32,247 nucleotides of DNA from Deltaproteobacteria bacterium (GTDB lineage: Bacteria > Myxococcota_A > UBA9160). A program made the translations under genes and the position numbers. The number at the start of each line of letters is the position of its first letter. Position 1 is the first letter of the stretch. Under the pieces are notes generated by a model, which did not search any database, was not told the origin of the DNA, and was given only the letters and a program-made list of their open reading frames with translations. Below are positions 10,025 through 30,106 of this stretch, one piece after another. Location of the stretch: the NCBI GenBank assembly GCA_020849175.1, contig JADLGR010000164.1, positions 1-32,247 on the forward strand, read 5' to 3'.

Positions 10025-10067
10025 GCGGGGTCCTCCCCGAGACGAGCGAAACGAGAGGTCGATCCGC

Positions 10068-10829
10068 ATGATCTCCCCCGGCGCTACCGCCCCGGACTTC
10101 ACGCTCGCGGACCATCTCGGCCGCAAGGTCCGGCTGTCCGACTTTCGTGGGCGACACCACGTGTGTCTGCTCTTCTACCCGCTCGACTGGACGCCCACCT
10201 GAAGCACGGAAGTCCCGGCCGTGGAGGCGCTGCTTCCGCGGTTCCGGGATGCCAACACCCAGGTGCTGGGTGTCAGCGTCGACAGCGTCTACAGCCATGC
10301 GAACTGGGCCCGAGACCTCGGGGGCATCTCGTTCCCGCTCCTCTCCGACTTCGAGCCGAAGGGCGCGATGGCGAAGAGCCTGGGTGTGTATCTCGACGGC
10401 CCCGGCATCACCGACCGCGCGACGATCGTGATCGACAGCGCGGGCGTCGTCCGGCACGCCTCGTCCGTCGGCCCCGGCGGTCAGCGAGGAATCGACGATC
10501 TGGCCGCCCTCTGCGCACAGAGCGATCGTGAGGCGCGTACGCCGGTCGTACCGTTCTCGAAGCCCGCGGGTCTCGCGTCCGACGCGGTGCTCTACGTGAA
10601 GAGTCGCTGTGGCTTCTCGCGTGCCGTGCTGCTGGCGCGTGACAACCTGCACCTCGCCGCGAAGCTGCCCGTGCGCAACGTGACCGAAGACGCCGCCGCG
10701 AGAAGCGAGCTCGTGCGCGTCTCGGGCAAGGAGCAGGCGCCGTGCCTCGTCGTCGGCGGTGCGGCGAAGCTCGAGTCGGCCGAGATCATCGCCGTGCTGC
10801 GGGATGCGGCACTCGGGTCGCTCGTCTAA
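10068..10829 (+). CDS. Selenocysteine peroxiredoxin-glutaredoxin (CGFS) fusion; TGA at 10200-10202 read as Sec
   Basis: A single frame runs from ATG 10068 (AGAGG nine bases upstream) to TAA 10827-10829, interrupted once by TGA at 10200-10202 (codon 45). The N-terminal half is an AhpC/TSA peroxiredoxin, 'GATAPDFTLADHLGRKVRLS' followed by 'LLFYPLDWTPT-U-STEVPA'. The TGA falls exactly where the PxxxTxxC motif puts the peroxidatic cysteine. Homology continues on both sides of the TGA, with Arg117 in 'TDRATIVID' as the probable active-site arginine. Residues about 170-253 form a glutaredoxin-like domain: 'VLYVKSRCGFSRAVLLAR' with a monothiol-type CGFS (C181), 'QAPCLVV' with the cis-proline (P225), and 'LESAEIIAVL'. 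The predicted role is selenol-based peroxide reduction with a built-in redox partner. A hairpin follows the TGA (separate entry). The alternatives are a nonsense mutation or a sequencing error. Full length would be 253 residues; reading TGA as stop leaves 44. The 3' end overlaps the convergent PEP-CTERM gene by 4 bases. Confidence 0.88.
10213..10249 (+). promoter_or_regulatory. Candidate bacterial SECIS hairpin downstream of the in-frame TGA
   Basis: Starting ten bases after the TGA, 10213-10227 pairs with 10233-10249 in 15 base pairs (two of them G-U) with a single UU bulge at 10242-10243, leaving a 5-base apical loop CGCUG (10228-10232). The loop begins 26 bases after the TGA and has G among its first two bases. 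These match what I recall of the bacterial SECIS consensus: a stem-loop inside the coding region, small apical loop with an early G, and the loop about 16-37 bases from UGA. A competing fold pairs CGGAAG (10207-10212) with CTTCCG (10233-10238), plus GCC/GGC, around a GUGGA loop (10221-10225). It also satisfies the rule and has GU in the loop. I paired bases by eye and computed no energies. Confidence 0.7.
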
Positions 10830-11392
10830 CGACGAGAGCCGCGTCCGAGAACGAGGAGTCCGAGAGCGACGAGCGCGAGACTCGCCGGCTCCGGGACCAT
10901 CGTCACGGTGTAGGTGCCGCCGGAGCTCCCCGATCCGTAGCTGAGCGAGCTGGACGACGAGCTGCTGCCGGACCACGCTCCGGCGCTCGCATCGAAAGCC
11001 TGTGCGCTGTAGGTCGTTCCGAGGATCGGCACCGTCACGCTCCCACTTTCGTAGAAGTGGATCCGCAGGTCGGTGACCGCGCCGCTGGAAACCACCGCGA
11101 GCACGCTGAGCGCCGAGGACGTCGTGCCGGGCGGGAAGACGAAGGCCGGCGTCAGCGTCGCAGCGACATCGTAGAGCCCATCGACGCCGAGCTGTGCAGA
11201 GTCGAGCGTGAAGCTCTTGGCGAACGTCACGCCCGGTGTGAGCGGGACGCAGAACGAGCGCACGCAGCTCTGGCCGTGGGTCGTGAGGTAGTCGACCTCG
11301 ACCAGGACCGGGCTCGCGCTCGCCTGTGTCGATCCGAACACGACCATCGCCGCCACGAGCAGGCGCGCTCCCGCGCGACCCAGACGCTCCAC
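10826..11392 (-). CDS. PEP-CTERM sorting domain protein
   Basis: This 188-residue secreted protein has a signal peptide ('RLLVAAMVVFGSTQASAS'), a beta-rich body without a recognisable enzyme domain, a Ser/Gly-rich low-complexity stretch before the end, and a C-terminal PEP-CTERM signal: 'VPEPASLALVALGLLVLG' then 'RGSRR'. PEP-CTERM proteins are processed by exosortase (EpsH/XrtA type) and are linked to exopolysaccharide or biofilm matrix; no exosortase gene is in the window. Two cysteines ('CVRSFC') lie near the mature N-terminus. The GTG at 11392 is chosen because GGAGG lies five bases upstream and it gives a normal signal peptide; an in-frame GTG at 11428 would add 12 charged residues. Its stop overlaps the stop of the convergent selenoprotein gene by 4 bases. 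Confidence 0.85.
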   Translation of the reverse strand: MERLGRAGARLLVAAMVVFGSTQASASPVLVEVDYLTTHGQSCVRSFCVPLTPGVTFAKSFTLDSAQLGVDGLYDVAATLTPAFVFPPGTTSSALSVLAVVSSGAVTDLRIHFYESGSVTVPILGTTYSAQAFDASAGAWSGSSSSSSSLSYGSGSSGGTYTVTMVPEPASLALVALGLLVLGRGSRR

Positions 11393-11461
11393 TTCCGCCT
11401 CCGACTGCCGCTCTCGTGCGGCATGCACTGGAGGTGGACACTGCGGCGAAAAGGTGTCAGA

Positions 11462-24567: not shown

Positions 24568-27198
24568 TCAGTTCCGCGCGACGTCCGCCTCCACGATCCG
24601 CGGCGTCACGAAGATCAGCAGCTCGCGCCGCTTGTCGCGGATCGCGTCGTTCTTGAACGCGTTGCCGAGGATCGGGATCCGATACAGGTACGGCACGCGC
24701 TGCTCGGTCTCGGTTCGATCGATCACGTAGATGCCACCCAGGACCAGCGTCTGACCGTTCTTGACCAGTGTCTCGGTCCTCGCCTCGTTCTTGGCGATGG
24801 CGGGCGAGCCCGTCGGCGTCGGGACGCTGGGATCGGGCGCGTTGCGCGTCACCTGGATCTTCATGATGATGCTCTTGTCCGCGGTGATGTGCGGGGTGAC
24901 GAGCAGGCTCAGCACCGCGTCGATGAACTCGAGCTGCGCGTCGCCGTTCTCGAAGGTCTGGAACGGGATCGACACGCCCTGCTCGATCTTCGCCTCGCGG
25001 TTGTCGAGCGTGACGACACGCGGACTCGAGATCACCTTGCCCTCGCCGTTGCTCTCCGCCGCCTGGAGCTGGAGCGTCAGGTTGAACCGATCGTCGAGGA
25101 TGTAGCCGCCGAGATTCAGCAGGCCGTTCGCGGTCGACGTGATCGGATTCGAGACCACGACGTTGTTCGGCTGCTGGAACGGGAAGCTGGTGCCGGTCGC
25201 CGTCTGGTCCGGCGGCGGCGAGAACGCGTCGTAGCCTGCGACGGTGTTGTCCGGGTTGGACCCGATGCCCCACACGGCGCCCAGGTCACGCGAGAAGTCG
25301 AGCTTCGCTTCGACGATCTTCGACTCGATGAGGACCTGCGGCGTCGGCGTGTCGACGGCCTTGACGAGCGCCACCGACTCGTCGACGACGCTCGGAATGT
25401 CCTTGAGGATGAGAGTGTTCGTCCGCTTGTCGACGTTCACCGACCCGCGCGAGGTGAGGAGCTTCTTCACCATCGTGTCGACTTCGGCGACGTTCGCGTA
25501 GTTGACGGGCAGGATCTTGACGACGAGGTCTTCGAGCTTCTCCTTGGCCCGCCTCTCCTCGAGCCGTGCCGCCTCTTCGGTCTTGAGCACGTCCTGCGGC
25601 GCGATCCGCAGCACGTTCCCGACCAGAACGAAGCCAAGGCCCTTGGTGAGCAGGATCACGTCGAGTGCCTGGTCCCACGGGACGTCCGTGAGCCGGATCG
25701 TCACGTTGCCTTTGACTTCGTCGCCCGCGATCACGTTGAGGTCCGAGACCTCGGCGATGAGGCGCAGCACGTCGGCGATCTCGACGTCCTTGAAGTCGAG
25801 CGAGATCCGGCGTCCGGTGTAGGTCTTGCCGCCGACGAGGCCGCCCTCCTTGAGCATGTCCGTCGGAGCACCGGCGGCGGACGCCGGCGGCGGACTCACC
25901 GGCGCTGCCGGCATCGTCGCCGCAGCCGCCGCCGTTCGCGCCGGCGCCGTGGCGCGCTCGGCAGCCTCTTCGACGCGCACGGGATCGGGCGTCGCCGAAG
26001 CACTCGCGCGCACCTTCGAGGAGCGCGGGAAGTCGAGCACGAGGAACGGACCCTGCTGCTCGACCGCGGGCTCGACGCCGGCCGCACGTGCGATCGCGAT
26101 GCGCACTTCGGGCTTCGAAGCGCCGGGCATCTGGAGCGCCGTCACGAGCGACACCGGGCCGGGCTCCTGTGGCGTCACGCGGACCGTTGCCCCTGGCTCG
26201 AGCATGGCGTCCTGAAGACTGACGATCAGCGTCTCGGCGTCCGGTCGCAGGATCGAGTACGGCGCAACTGCGTTCTGCACGATCACGACCCGATCGCGAT
26301 CGGTCTGGGCGTCGTACTCGACGCCATGCACGCGGACGGTCGCCGTCGGTGACGCCTCAGGCGAAGCCGCCGGGGCCTCGGGCGCGGCCGACGCTGCGAT
26401 CGCCGGAGCTGCCGCCGGAACCTCGGGTGCGGCCGACGCTGCCTCGGACGGAGCGGGTGCGTCCGCGGGCATGGCGGGCGCGGCCGCCGACTCGGCGGCT
26501 GCGTCCAGAGGCACCACGGGCAGACCGAGCGGAGCGGCGTCTTGCGCCGCGAGCTGCGAGGCGACGTCACTCGTCTCCGGTGCGGCGGAGGCTGCCACCG
26601 GCGGAAGCGTGGCGGTCTCGCCCGGCGTCTCCTCGGTCGGAGGCACACTCGCGAGCGTCTCGGTCGCGGAGCCGGCGAGGCGCGCCGCCTCGCTTCCGAG
26701 GCCGATCCACAGCCCGTCCGCCCGCGGCACCAGAAGCCGTCCCTCGAACGGCCGCTCGACGCCTCCCGCATCGATGACGACGCGGAGCTTCGTATCGTGC
26801 TGTCCGATGCGAACGCGCTCCACCTGCGGCGAGCCGACGGGGATTGGCTTCGCCGCCAGCGCACTTCGAAGCCCCGGCAGATCGACGACGAGGCGACCCG
26901 GGTTCTCGAGCACCTCGGTTCGCGCATCGGTGATCGTTCCGTCAGCGCGCAGGCGCAGGAGCGTCCCGCCGTCCGCGGTCTCGGCCTCGACGTCGAGCAG
27001 ACGCCGCGCCGCAGCAACGCTGGGGATCGGCGCGTCCACCGCTTCGATCTCGCCGGCGATCTCGGAGGCGAGCCCCTGTGCACTCGCCTCCGCTGCGGCC
27101 TCGTCCGACGCGCCCCCGAGCGCGAGGCTCGCCGCCAGGAGCACCGGCCCGAGCGCTCGACGCCGAAGGCCACGGAACCCGTTCAGAGTCGATCGCAT
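24568..27198 (-). CDS. pilQ: Type IV pilus secretin PilQ
   Basis: This 876-residue outer-membrane secretin forms the channel through which the pilus passes. In order: signal peptide (about 1-36), AMIN domain 1 (about 67-150), a long Ala/Pro/Glu/Ser linker (about 180-285), AMIN domain 2 (about 286-395), a second linker, N0/STN domain (about 464-535: 'ISLDFKDVEIADVLRLIAEV'), N1 domain (about 555-625, including 'NTLILKDIPSVVDESVALVK'), and the secretin core (about 690-870) with 'KVISSPRVVTLDNREAKIEQ' and 'QTLVLGGIYVIDRTETEQRV', ending 'RRELLIFVTPRIVE'. AMIN domains bind peptidoglycan. The ATG at 27198 lies five bases after the pilP stop. It is the last gene of pilMNOPQ. Confidence 0.96.
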   Translation of the reverse strand: MRSTLNGFRGLRRRALGPVLLAASLALGGASDEAAAEASAQGLASEIAGEIEAVDAPIPSVAAARRLLDVEAETADGGTLLRLRADGTITDARTEVLENPGRLVVDLPGLRSALAAKPIPVGSPQVERVRIGQHDTKLRVVIDAGGVERPFEGRLLVPRADGLWIGLGSEAARLAGSATETLASVPPTEETPGETATLPPVAASAAPETSDVASQLAAQDAAPLGLPVVPLDAAAESAAAPAMPADAPAPSEAASAAPEVPAAAPAIAASAAPEAPAASPEASPTATVRVHGVEYDAQTDRDRVVIVQNAVAPYSILRPDAETLIVSLQDAMLEPGATVRVTPQEPGPVSLVTALQMPGASKPEVRIAIARAAGVEPAVEQQGPFLVLDFPRSSKVRASASATPDPVRVEEAAERATAPARTAAAAATMPAAPVSPPPASAAGAPTDMLKEGGLVGGKTYTGRRISLDFKDVEIADVLRLIAEVSDLNVIAGDEVKGNVTIRLTDVPWDQALDVILLTKGLGFVLVGNVLRIAPQDVLKTEEAARLEERRAKEKLEDLVVKILPVNYANVAEVDTMVKKLLTSRGSVNVDKRTNTLILKDIPSVVDESVALVKAVDTPTPQVLIESKIVEAKLDFSRDLGAVWGIGSNPDNTVAGYDAFSPPPDQTATGTSFPFQQPNNVVVSNPITSTANGLLNLGGYILDDRFNLTLQLQAAESNGEGKVISSPRVVTLDNREAKIEQGVSIPFQTFENGDAQLEFIDAVLSLLVTPHITADKSIIMKIQVTRNAPDPSVPTPTGSPAIAKNEARTETLVKNGQTLVLGGIYVIDRTETEQRVPYLYRIPILGNAFKNDAIRDKRRELLIFVTPRIVEADVARN
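26376..26442. repeat. 45-bp-period direct repeat in the PilQ linker
   Basis: The 22 bases at 26376-26397 recur at 26421-26442 with one difference, a spacing of 45 bases or 15 codons. In the protein this is 'AASAAPE' followed by V/A-P, repeated in the Ala/Pro linker between the two AMIN domains. Such repeats can change in number by slippage. Confidence 0.6.
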
Positions 27199-27203
27199 CT
27201 TCG

Positions 27204-27743
27204 TCACCCCCCCTGGCTCTGCCGAATACGCATCTCGATGTCCTTCTCGGTTCGGCCGCCGAGCGTGTCTTCGTACACCTCGCGAACGACCAGCGTGCTG
27301 TCGCTGATCTTCGTCACGAGGCCCGCGTTCTTTCCGATGGGCGTACCTTCCTTCACGATGTATCCGCGCCCCTGCGGATCCGTCACGAGGGCGCGCGGCT
27401 TGTCGGTCCCCCACACGACCGCTTGCAGTGCGATCTGTCCGATCTCGAACTGCTCGAGCGGCCCACGCTCTCCCTTGTTGCGACGTGCCGCCTCCTCGAG
27501 AACGAACGACCGGAACGGGTCGCGCTTTCCCGCCGGCTCGTAGACGTATCCCTTCTCGATGTTTCCCTCGCTCGCCGGCGCCTCCGCCGGCGGCTTCTTC
27601 GGCCCCTTGCCGGCGCCCGCGGCGGCGGCGTTGAGCTTTGCCGTGCGAGCGGCCTCGTACTCGCTCGTGCTCGGCCCGGCGACTTCGTTGCCGCAGGCGG
27701 CGAGCAGCGCGCCGGCCAGGGCGATCCCGACGATCCGTCGCAT
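27204..27743 (-). CDS. pilP: Type IV pilus assembly lipoprotein PilP
   Basis: This 179-residue inner-membrane lipoprotein carries a lipobox ('IALAGALLAAC'), an Ala/Pro/Lys-rich linker, and the PilP beta-domain: 'YVYEPAGKRDPFRSFVLEE' (the conserved Y-x-x-x-GRRDPF-like region), 'IGQIALQAVVWGTDKPRALV', 'GRGYIVKEGTPIGKNAGLVT' and 'VVREVYEDTLGG'. PilP links the PilN/PilO inner-membrane complex to the PilQ secretin. The ATG at 27743 overlaps the pilO stop by one base (TGATG); a GTG one codon earlier is equally possible. A G-rich GGAGGGG lies about seven bases upstream. Confidence 0.95.
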   Translation of the reverse strand: MRRIVGIALAGALLAACGNEVAGPSTSEYEAARTAKLNAAAAGAGKGPKKPPAEAPASEGNIEKGYVYEPAGKRDPFRSFVLEEAARRNKGERGPLEQFEIGQIALQAVVWGTDKPRALVTDPQGRGYIVKEGTPIGKNAGLVTKISDSTLVVREVYEDTLGGRTEKDIEMRIRQSQGG

Positions 27744-28402
27744 CACGCGTCCCCTCCCCCGGCTCGGGCCGGCGCGGGCCTCACTGGAGTCGGCGCCGCC
27801 GCCGGCGTCCCTCCCTGCTCGAGGAAGCGAAACGTCGTCGCGTTGCCCTTGACGAGCAGACGGGTTCCGAGCGGCGTCTCCTTCTCGATCTCGATCTTGA
27901 GGTCGGCGACGTTCACGATTCGCGGGAGCTTCGAGACGTCGTCGAAGAAGCGGGCGACGTCGTGGAAGCCGCCGGTGAACTCGATCTCGATCGGCACCTC
28001 GGCGTAGAACTCGCGAGCGACCTCGTCCTTGGGACGGAACGCCTTGAACTCGAGCCCTGCGTTCTTTCCCCGGCTCGAGATGTCGGTCAGCAGTCCCGGC
28101 AGCTCCTTGCTGTTCGGAAGCTGACGCAGCGCCGTTCGGAGCTCCGATTCGAGCTCCGTGAGCCTCGCCTGGAACGCAGGCAGGTTCGCGGCGACCGAGC
28201 GCACCTCGCTGAGCTTTCGCTGGAGCTCGAGCTGCTGGGCGCCGAGACGGTCGAGCGTCTCTCGCGCCGGGAGATAGAACAGATAGACGTAGAGACCTGC
28301 GACCGCGACCGTGAGCAGGGTGAGGATCGCGATGCGCTGCGTGCGCGGAAGCCTGGTCACCTTCGCGAGGCTCGCCTGGTACTTCTCGAGTCCGAGCTCC
28401 AT
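27743..28402 (-). CDS. pilO: Type IV pilus assembly protein PilO
   Basis: This 219-residue bitopic inner-membrane protein has a cytoplasmic N-terminus, one membrane helix ('IAILTLLTVAVAGLYVYLFY', about residues 24-43), a coiled coil ('LDRLGAQQLELQRKLSEVRS'), and the ferredoxin-like PilO domain ('ISSRGKNAGLEFKAFRPKDE', 'FTGGFHDVARFFDDVSKLPR'). It dimerises with PilN in the alignment subcomplex. The C-terminus is Pro/Ala-rich. The ATG at 28402 has GGGAGA six bases upstream, which favours it over an Arg-rich extension; it lies ten bases after pilN. Confidence 0.95.
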   Translation of the reverse strand: MELGLEKYQASLAKVTRLPRTQRIAILTLLTVAVAGLYVYLFYLPARETLDRLGAQQLELQRKLSEVRSVAANLPAFQARLTELESELRTALRQLPNSKELPGLLTDISSRGKNAGLEFKAFRPKDEVAREFYAEVPIEIEFTGGFHDVARFFDDVSKLPRIVNVADLKIEIEKETPLGTRLLVKGNATTFRFLEQGGTPAAAPTPVRPAPARAGGGDA

Positions 28403-28412
28403 CGTCGTCTCC

Positions 28413-29033
28413 CTAGCCGTTCGCCGCAGGAGCGGCCGCGGGCGGAGTGCCGGCGCCGGCCGGCGCAACCGGTGCCGGCGTCGTCTTCGCCTCGGGGCTG
28501 GTCAGCACGGCGGTCACCTGGAAGCTGTTCAGCTTGAGTCCGCCCGACTCCGCGAGCTCGGTGCTCTTGAGCTCGACGTCCTTCAAATACGGCGAGTCGT
28601 TGATGCGGTTCAGGAACTCCGCGATCAGCTCCGTATCGAGACTCATCCCCTTCATGTGGATCCGCGTCCCTTCCGCCTGAAGACTCGTGATCCAGAGCTT
28701 CTGCGGCGAGCGGCTCGCCAGCTCGTCGAGGAGCCGTACCGGCCCGCTGCGCGAGAGCTCGAGCTTGTGGATCACGTCGAGCTTTCGCTCGATCTCGCCG
28801 GCCTTCTTCTTGAAGTCCTCGACCTGCTGGAGCTGGCTCTGGAACTCCGAGATCTGTGCGTTGAGCTGGGCGACGCGCGACTGCCCGTTCGAGATGCTCG
28901 TCAGCATGGCGAGCTGGGCGAGCACGCAGGCCAGGATCGCCGCCCCGATCACGAGGCCGAGGATCAGGATCTGCTGCTGCATGTCGGCCTTGCGGCGCGC
29001 CTCGCGGACCGGCAGCAGGTTGATCCGAATCAT
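28413..29033 (-). CDS. pilN: Type IV pilus assembly protein PilN
   Basis: This 206-residue protein begins with the conserved PilM-binding peptide 'MIRINLLPVREARRK', then a membrane helix ('ILILGLVIGAAILACVLAQL'), a coiled coil ('QSRVAQLNAQISEFQSQLQQ') and the PilN periplasmic domain ('LLDELASRSPQKLWITSLQA', 'AEFLNRINDSPYLKDVEL'), closing with an Ala/Pro tail. It connects cytoplasmic PilM to PilO and PilP. Its ATG overlaps the pilM stop by four bases (ATGA). Confidence 0.96.
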   Translation of the reverse strand: MIRINLLPVREARRKADMQQQILILGLVIGAAILACVLAQLAMLTSISNGQSRVAQLNAQISEFQSQLQQVEDFKKKAGEIERKLDVIHKLELSRSGPVRLLDELASRSPQKLWITSLQAEGTRIHMKGMSLDTELIAEFLNRINDSPYLKDVELKSTELAESGGLKLNSFQVTAVLTSPEAKTTPAPVAPAGAGTPPAAAPAANG

Positions 29034-30106
29034 CGTTCACTCCCTTCGCGCAGAGCGAGCCCGACGGCGACCCCGAGGAACGGAGCCATGTCTTTCACGA
29101 ACTCCGACTCGTAGATCGAACTCGGGAGCATCCTCGCCAGCGGATCGAGGCGTTCGACCGGGAAGCCCGTCTTCTCCTCGAAGCGCTTGTCGAAGCCCGG
29201 CACCTTCGAGGACCCGCCGGCCAGGTAGACCTTCGCCACACGGCTCTCGGCCGAAGTCGCCGAGAAGAAGTCGAGGCTCCGCGAGATCTCTCCGATCACC
29301 TGGTCGCTCACGTTCCGCATGGCCTGCTCGACCTCCTGCGGGACCACGTCCTGGCTGTCCTCCTCGCCCGCACCTCCGAGCTTGATGCGCTCGGCCTCCT
29401 CGAAGCCGACCGAGAGCGTCTTCTGAATCTCTTCGGTGTAGGCGTTGCCCCCGATCGAGATGTCGCGCGTGAAGGCGGGAACACCGCGCGCGAGCACGTT
29501 GATGTTCGTGCTCTGGGCGCCGACGTTCGCGATCGCGACCACTTCGTCCGGCGCGGCTTCCACGTTCGCGTCCCAGGCGTTCGCCACCGCGAAGCCGGCC
29601 ACGTCGATCACGCTCGGCGTCATTCCCGCCTCGGCCAACACGTTGACCGTGTCGTCGATCAGCTCCTTCTTCGCGGCGACGAGCAGGACGTCCATCTGTC
29701 CCTCCACCGCCCCCGGATTGAGAATCTCGAAGTCGAGATTCACCTCGTTGACGTCGAACGGGATGTACTGCTCGGCCTCCCAGCGAATCGATTCCTCGAG
29801 CTCCTCACGGGTCATCGTGGGAAGCGAGATCTTCTTCACGATCACCGAGTGGCCGGAGACGGCGACGGCGACGTTCGTGCTCTTGATCTTCGCGCTTTCG
29901 ACCGCCTCGCGGATCGCATCGGTGATCGCACCGGCGTTGAGGAACGCTCCCTGTACGATCGACTCGTGTGGAAGCTTCGCGACGCCGAGGTGGAGTAGCT
30001 CGTAGCCCCTCGGACTCACCTTCAGCTCGACGGCTTTGACCGAAGACGAGCCGATGTCGAGGCCGAAGAGCGACTTGTTCTTGAACTGTCGGAACGGGAG
30101 CTTCAC
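29030..30106 (-). CDS. pilM: Type IV pilus assembly protein PilM
   Basis: This 358-residue cytoplasmic actin-like protein (FtsA-like fold) has the phosphate-1 motif 'FGLDIGSSSVKAVEL' near residue 14, 'NVAVAVSGHSVIVKKISLPT', 'EELEESIRWEAEQYIPFDVN', 'VVAIANVGAQSTNINVLARG' (phosphate-2) and 'VAKVYLAGGSSKVPGFDKRF' (adenosine motif). It binds ATP and the N-terminal peptide of PilN. The start is a GTG at 30106 with GAGGAGGGG about nine bases upstream. It is the first pil gene, 23 bases after the small XRE-type regulator. Confidence 0.96.
   Translation of the reverse strand: MKLPFRQFKNKSLFGLDIGSSSVKAVELKVSPRGYELLHLGVAKLPHESIVQGAFLNAGAITDAIREAVESAKIKSTNVAVAVSGHSVIVKKISLPTMTREELEESIRWEAEQYIPFDVNEVNLDFEILNPGAVEGQMDVLLVAAKKELIDDTVNVLAEAGMTPSVIDVAGFAVANAWDANVEAAPDEVVAIANVGAQSTNINVLARGVPAFTRDISIGGNAYTEEIQKTLSVGFEEAERIKLGGAGEEDSQDVVPQEVEQAMRNVSDQVIGEISRSLDFFSATSAESRVAKVYLAGGSSKVPGFDKRFEEKTGFPVERLDPLARMLPSSIYESEFVKDMAPFLGVAVGLALREGSER

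Follow-up and report, generated by a model that had tools for sequence, protein, structure and literature searches.

Is a peroxiredoxin gene with an in-frame TGA at its peroxidatic position a defective gene or the gene of a selenoprotein, and if the latter, what kind of enzyme does it encode? This question is raised by a locus in a 32,247-nucleotide stretch of DNA from a Deltaproteobacteria bacterium (contig JADLGR010000164.1), which as a whole we refer to as the window. Comparison with homologous genes strongly supports reading the TGA, codon 45, as selenocysteine (Sec), and the product is very probably a one-chain selenoprotein whose Sec45 would be reset through Cys181 and glutathione in a fused glutaredoxin-like domain. 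A preliminary description of the locus, which had proposed a selenocysteine-containing peroxiredoxin, overlooked this second domain. The features of the locus are as follows.

10053..10059, plus strand: GAGAGGT, which may be a ribosome-binding site, 8 bases upstream of the start codon ATG at 10068 (by eye)
10068..10829, plus strand: complete frame encoding the fusion of a Sec-containing peroxiredoxin with a glutaredoxin-like domain, with predicted Sec45 and then TAA (read-through, Pfam, homologues)
10080..10457, plus strand: peroxiredoxin domain, residues 5-130, AhpC-TSA (Pfam, PDB sequence search, Foldseek)
10200..10202, plus strand: codon 45 (TGA), predicted to specify selenocysteine in the peroxidatic position (TGA in 33/33 records, window included)
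10212..10250, plus strand: strong hairpin after the TGA, candidate bacterial SECIS, with a loop GCU that starts 26 bases after the TGA (folding)
10587..10760, plus strand: glutaredoxin-like domain, residues 174-231 (Pfam; in the model, strands and helices follow a thioredoxin-type order)
10608..10610, plus strand: TGT, Cys181 (CxxS), predicted resolving or glutaredoxin-type nucleophile (invariant in 28/28 distinct sequences that reach the domain)
10743..10745, plus strand: TGC, Cys226, beside Pro225 (Cys in 20/28, otherwise Ala or Val)

Translated through its one internal TGA, the frame from 10068 to 10829 encodes 253 residues followed by TAA. The read-through product matches the Pfam family AhpC-TSA (PF00578) over residues 5-130 with 122 bits, which bears out the earlier reading of a continuous peroxiredoxin frame across the TGA. 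It also matches Glutaredoxin over residues 174-231 (29.6 bits, cut-off 22.9), and GST_N_3 matches the same C-terminal end (24.6 bits, cut-off 22). Since the AhpC-TSA and Glutaredoxin matches lie in one read-through protein, it is a two-domain fusion. Codon 45 completes the motif PLDWTPT-U, that is PxxxTxxU with P38 and T42, and when C is written for the TGA it aligns with the peroxidatic Cys of Mycobacterium tuberculosis AhpE, which is the nearest solved relative by sequence (103 bits in a PDB sequence search) and ranks fourth among the structural matches found by Foldseek. The glutaredoxin-like domain alone retrieved no PDB sequence at E <= 0.1. Its site in the window reads CGFS, and S184 is present in 27 of 28 sequences.

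The distribution of cysteines bears on how such an enzyme might be recycled. Among the 28 sequences, columns 45 and 181 are the only invariant Cys or Sec columns, while Cys149 (22/28), Cys226 (20/28) and Cys76 (16/28) vary; Cys226 is replaced by Ala or Val in the rest and is therefore not essential to the fusion family. Within the peroxiredoxin part, invariance of Cys or Sec is confined to column 45 and there is no invariant resolving Cys, and all 28 sequences that are uncut before the glutaredoxin-like domain keep the fusion. In a structure model built on an alignment of 8 sequences (mean pLDDT 78.5), residue 45 lies within the opening turns of helix 42-54, and residue 181 immediately precedes helix 182-193 in a second thioredoxin-like domain; much of residues 73-96 falls below pLDDT 50, and the arrangement of the two domains is not settled by the model. 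Glutathione synthetase is found in all 20 of the carrier genomes tested (26 carriers are known) and scores over its cut-off in 19 of them; in genome G022 it is in two pieces at contig ends.

We propose that ribosomes would insert Sec at codon 45 by way of the SelA/SelB/SelD/tRNA-Sec pathway, and that the AhpE-like domain, going by its family, would use Sec45 to reduce hydrogen peroxide or organic peroxides, leaving a selenenic acid. Because the peroxiredoxin domain has no other invariant Cys, Cys181 is the probable resetter of this selenenic acid, acting either directly or after glutathionylation, with glutathione as the putative final electron donor. The electron path that we infer, Sec45-Cys181-glutathione, would resemble the scheme of M. 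tuberculosis AhpE and mycoredoxin-1, except that selenium would be used and both partners sit in a single chain.

A selenoprotein could also be reset in other ways. Thioredoxin or free thiols might reduce Sec45, leaving the CxxS domain to reduce glutathionylated proteins or to bind a partner, and several observations would suit such a division of labor: CxxS is a monothiol-type site, the model is unsure of how the domains are arranged, the Glutaredoxin match is modest at 29.6 bits, and the domain alone lacks a PDB sequence at E <= 0.1. On the other hand, Cys181 is invariant in 28/28 sequences with no other such Cys apart from the Sec column, the fusion is kept in 28/28, and the comparable fusion of Haemophilus influenzae, PGdx, is described as glutathione-dependent (PMC1361801). 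We consider a different reductant possible but unlikely, and favor resetting through Cys181.

The reading of the TGA as Sec draws on the relatives of the gene. We compared 33 fusion records, four of which exactly repeat another record, leaving 29 distinct sequences; 28 of these reach the glutaredoxin-like domain, since L035 stops before it, while L121 is truncated close to its end. All 33 records, the window included, have TGA at codon 45 and none has Cys, an agreement far beyond chance, which confirms the earlier placing of the TGA at 10200-10202 on the peroxidatic PxxxTxx position. The other distinct sequences are about 50-69% identical to that of the window. Of 97 genomes, 96 from relatives and one the window's own, 15 have a match at E <= 1e-59, that of the window among them, and each match contains exactly one TGA; one of the 15, locus L035 in genome G021, is cut by a contig end. 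Lower-ranked matches of the same search include others with one TGA. In a phylum sample of 377 genomes, for which at most 7 candidates per genome were scored, 26 genomes match at E <= 1e-40, the window's own and all of the 15 included, and 26/26 have exactly one TGA. The same-genus genome G001 (90% complete) and the same-family genome G002 (81% complete) have no match at that threshold. A scan of further contig records with short exact peptide patterns gave 16 loci, of which the seven named L051-L057 are fusions and the other nine are more distant peroxiredoxins. No Cys version of the fusion occurs among the 29 distinct sequences, as recovered by this exact-pattern scan and by the phylum search with its 7 candidates per genome at most.

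The MAG records that carry L051-L057 are labelled Planctomycetota, Myxococcales, Deltaproteobacteria, Binatota and Acidobacteria. The genes at L052, L053, L054 and L057 are identical to genes in genomes of the window's phylum, and the odd labels of the other three records may be misassigned.

An in-frame stop is usually taken as a defect, and the window comes from a fragmented MAG, so that a pseudogene, in which a Cys codon had been hit by a random nonsense mutation or misread in base calling, would be the customary reading. It would have to account, however, for a TGA that recurs at this codon in 29 distinct sequences, of which those other than the window's share about 50-69% identity with it, and for coding constraint beyond the TGA. 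After the TGA, dN (0.035-0.279) is below dS (0.28-1.8) in 14/14 pairs, these being pairs of more than 72% identity drawn from 12 sequences, non-independent and with the window in none of them. For the peroxiredoxin part downstream of the TGA, dN is 0.035-0.162 and dS 0.33-1.07 in the 14 pairs, and for the glutaredoxin part 0.035-0.279 and 0.28-1.8. Across 28 sequences, variation is greatest at third codon positions in each of the three regions examined, on either side of the TGA. Together, dN below dS and this third-position variation exclude a decayed or non-coding tail for the fusion family. We find no downstream degradation in homologues, a possibility that the preliminary description had raised against itself, and its preference for selenocysteine over a chance nonsense mutation or base error is supported; a pseudogene strikes us as extremely improbable.

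The preliminary description had also pointed to the Sec genes of the genome as a check, and the result that it named as refuting, a complete genome with no selABCD genes, is not what we find. The window genome (G000) is a MAG of 3.95 Mb in 371 contigs, 94.8% complete. It contains selA (484 bits, cut-off 267.9), selD (316 bits, cut-off 125) and the start of selB, 52 open codons cut by the end of contig C14 (69.6 bits, model positions 2-43; L003:1477-1634), while tRNA-Sec was not found in the 371 contigs (RF01852, and a DNA query with the tRNA-Sec of G001, the latter with no positive control). Six other selB matches in this genome (three of the six listed) fall below the cut-off and were taken as other translation GTPases, and ARAGORN identifies C14:864-951, the only RF01852 match that exceeds the gathering score, as a tRNA-Ser. 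A serS-like gene, recognized by eye, directly precedes the selB start at the end of C14. The selD gene (C302:22275-23201, minus strand; L017:1501-2427 region) has an in-frame TGA of its own in the context GGGU, and selenophosphate synthetase is thus itself predicted to be a selenoprotein.

Both G001 and G002 have a tRNA-Sec with anticodon tca (ARAGORN), and selB scores over its cut-off in 4/7 genomes tested, these two included. Because the DNA query found nothing and the best match in the window genome to the gene beside the G001 tRNA-Sec is 37% over 121 of 417 residues, the tRNA-Sec locus is probably missing from the window MAG rather than lost from the organism. The window genome is incomplete, and the missing tRNA-Sec therefore does not refute selenocysteine. 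All 15 carriers in the 97-genome set have selA. A tRNA-Sec match above 58 bits is present in 13 of them and lacking in G000 and G035. As selA is present in 87/97 genomes, its co-occurrence with the fusion says little by itself.

The frame is open once the TGA is given a residue, and this would also hold under an altered genetic code, or if TGA were read through without selenium as Trp, Gly or Cys. Yet TGA ends 17/23 likely genes of the window (genes picked by eye) and is therefore an ordinary stop there rather than a reassigned codon; it also closes the frame in 18/33 fusion records, any second TGA being counted as a stop. Moreover, six distant relatives (L058-L063), which match the peroxiredoxin part only, have TGT or TGC, a codon for the catalytic Cys, at this site in a codon comparison that covered L037 and L058-L064, and the Sec genes selA and selD are present. 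We give recoding of this kind almost no credence. Two other distant peroxiredoxins, L037 (G066:C10:62183-62620) and L064, carry an in-frame TGA after FTGG at the same site, and apparently represent another Sec-Prx subfamily. Finally, although table 11 does yield two ORFs, one ending at 10202 and one from GTG 10221, just as the preliminary description said, a short fragment plus a separate protein is scarcely credible, as the second ORF would begin too late to include the opening strands of the peroxiredoxin fold and its catalytic residue, and conservation is unbroken through the TGA.

Gene neighborhood is uninformative, since the ORFs beside the gene differ among L051, L053 and the window, with no conserved operon seen by eye in this comparison, which takes in two of the seven loci L051-L057. 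Next to the gene in the window, a 200-residue ORF on the minus strand (10826-11428) ends VPEPASLALVALGLLVLGRGSRR, which by eye looks like a PEP-CTERM sorting signal. Farther along, minus-strand ORFs at 24568-30106 resemble, again by eye, pilQ, pilP, pilO, pilN and pilM of a type IV pilus.

RNA structure after the TGA offers a further line of evidence for selenocysteine. In the window, the RNA at 10197-10250 folds at -29.5 kcal/mol (z -2.9, with 1/200 shuffles as good), and 0/60 synonymous-codon permutations give a hairpin as stable. Across the 29 distinct sequences we observe a shared hairpin of six pairs, with GGA in a loop that starts 19 bases after the TGA, and it is perfect in 18/29; the window forms four of the six pairs, and its strong hairpin is a different one. 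Pair 14-28 of the shared hairpin is A-U in 10 sequences, U-A in 5, G-U in 9 and unpaired in 5, and at three further pairs both partners change, each time in one or two sequences. In total, pairing fills 132/174 cells of the shared hairpin, whereas six slid registers reach 27 to 90, a comparison that favors it over its slid versions because it was chosen after the folds of the same sequences had been viewed.

Tests over the whole set were less telling. Applied to 19 sequences, over 57 bases counted from the TGA, RNAalifold gave no consensus structure, and hairpin energy alone was rejected as a test, the mean being -17.2 kcal/mol at the site against -0.8 to -17.1 kcal/mol at 20 control codons (each taken from up to 10 randomly drawn sequences), one of which came within 0.1 kcal/mol of the real-site mean. 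Under synonymous permutation, 7/29 sequences reach a fraction <= 0.05, and the mean fraction is 0.30. With the shared hairpin perfect in 18/29, four of six pairs formed in the window and the set-wide energy tests weak, we regard a SECIS as supported for the fusion family, and the evidence for the window's own sequence as suggestive.

How does this fusion relate to known enzymes? Sec-containing peroxiredoxin of the TxxU type is an established selenoprotein family (PMC13188914, PMC9312934, PMC1794560, PMC1088965), classed as experimentally verified with the motif PxxxTxxU in, for example, Eubacterium acidaminophilum (PMC13188914), and the earlier statement that Sec is known at this site in other bacterial peroxiredoxins holds. 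Anaeromyxobacter is credited with three Sec peroxiredoxins (PMC1794560). The E. acidaminophilum enzyme and the fusion both have an AhpC/TSA domain with Sec, here predicted, at the peroxidatic position, but the fusion is AhpE-like with an additional C-terminal glutaredoxin-like domain, and the NCBIfam model PrxU scores it at 76 bits against a cut-off of 270; none of its 15 NCBIfam matches exceeds its cut-off. AhpE of M. tuberculosis has one peroxidatic residue, which is reset by the glutaredoxin-like mycoredoxin-1 (PMC4360819). Both AhpE, the best solved sequence match of the fusion, and the fusion itself are of the one-Cys type with a single peroxidatic residue, but AhpE has Cys, a separate reductant and mycothiol, whereas the fusion has predicted Sec, a fused domain and genomes that encode glutathione synthetase. 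A Sec-Prx linked in one protein with a PP2C-type phosphatase domain, which has a conserved Cys, is reported from marine metagenomes (PMC2398784). There, too, a Sec-Prx is joined to a domain with a conserved Cys, but the partner is a phosphatase and not a glutaredoxin-like domain.

Glutaredoxin sites of the PGdx type have two cysteines. PGdx of H. influenzae combines peroxiredoxin and glutaredoxin in one chain and is described as a glutathione-dependent peroxidase and an atypical 2-Cys Prx (PMC1361801). Compared with PGdx by description, without an alignment, the fusion shares the order of a peroxiredoxin and then a glutaredoxin domain in one chain, but differs in its predicted Sec, its AhpE-like Prx and its CxxS site (CGFS) in place of a two-Cys site. 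Table 1 of one survey has no separate peroxiredoxin-glutaredoxin fusion family, though such proteins may fall under its Prx TxxU entry (PMC13188914), and we found no description of a Sec peroxiredoxin-glutaredoxin fusion in the titles and abstract openings of the papers listed from the open-licence literature. Sec-containing peroxiredoxin is thus already known, and the Sec-only AhpE-glutaredoxin fusion is the new part. A more specific proposal, that the family is Sec-only, resets itself through a Sec45-Cys181 selenenylsulfide, uses glutathione directly and has retained Sec throughout the phylum, no Cys counterpart having been seen, seems to us evenly poised between right and wrong.

In place of this enzyme, a standard gene caller reports a fragment and a second ORF with a wrong start, and the fusion is therefore likely missed or misnamed wherever it is present. 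Its architecture would bring peroxide reduction and probable glutaredoxin-type recycling together in one selenium-containing chain, so that the electron step between the domains can be tested with one protein. Among peroxiredoxins overall, Cys forms dominate, with 7,348 against 253 Sec forms in a table of GOS data (PMC2398784), yet none of the 29 distinct fusion sequences is a Cys version, making this family a useful case for asking when selenocysteine is irreplaceable.
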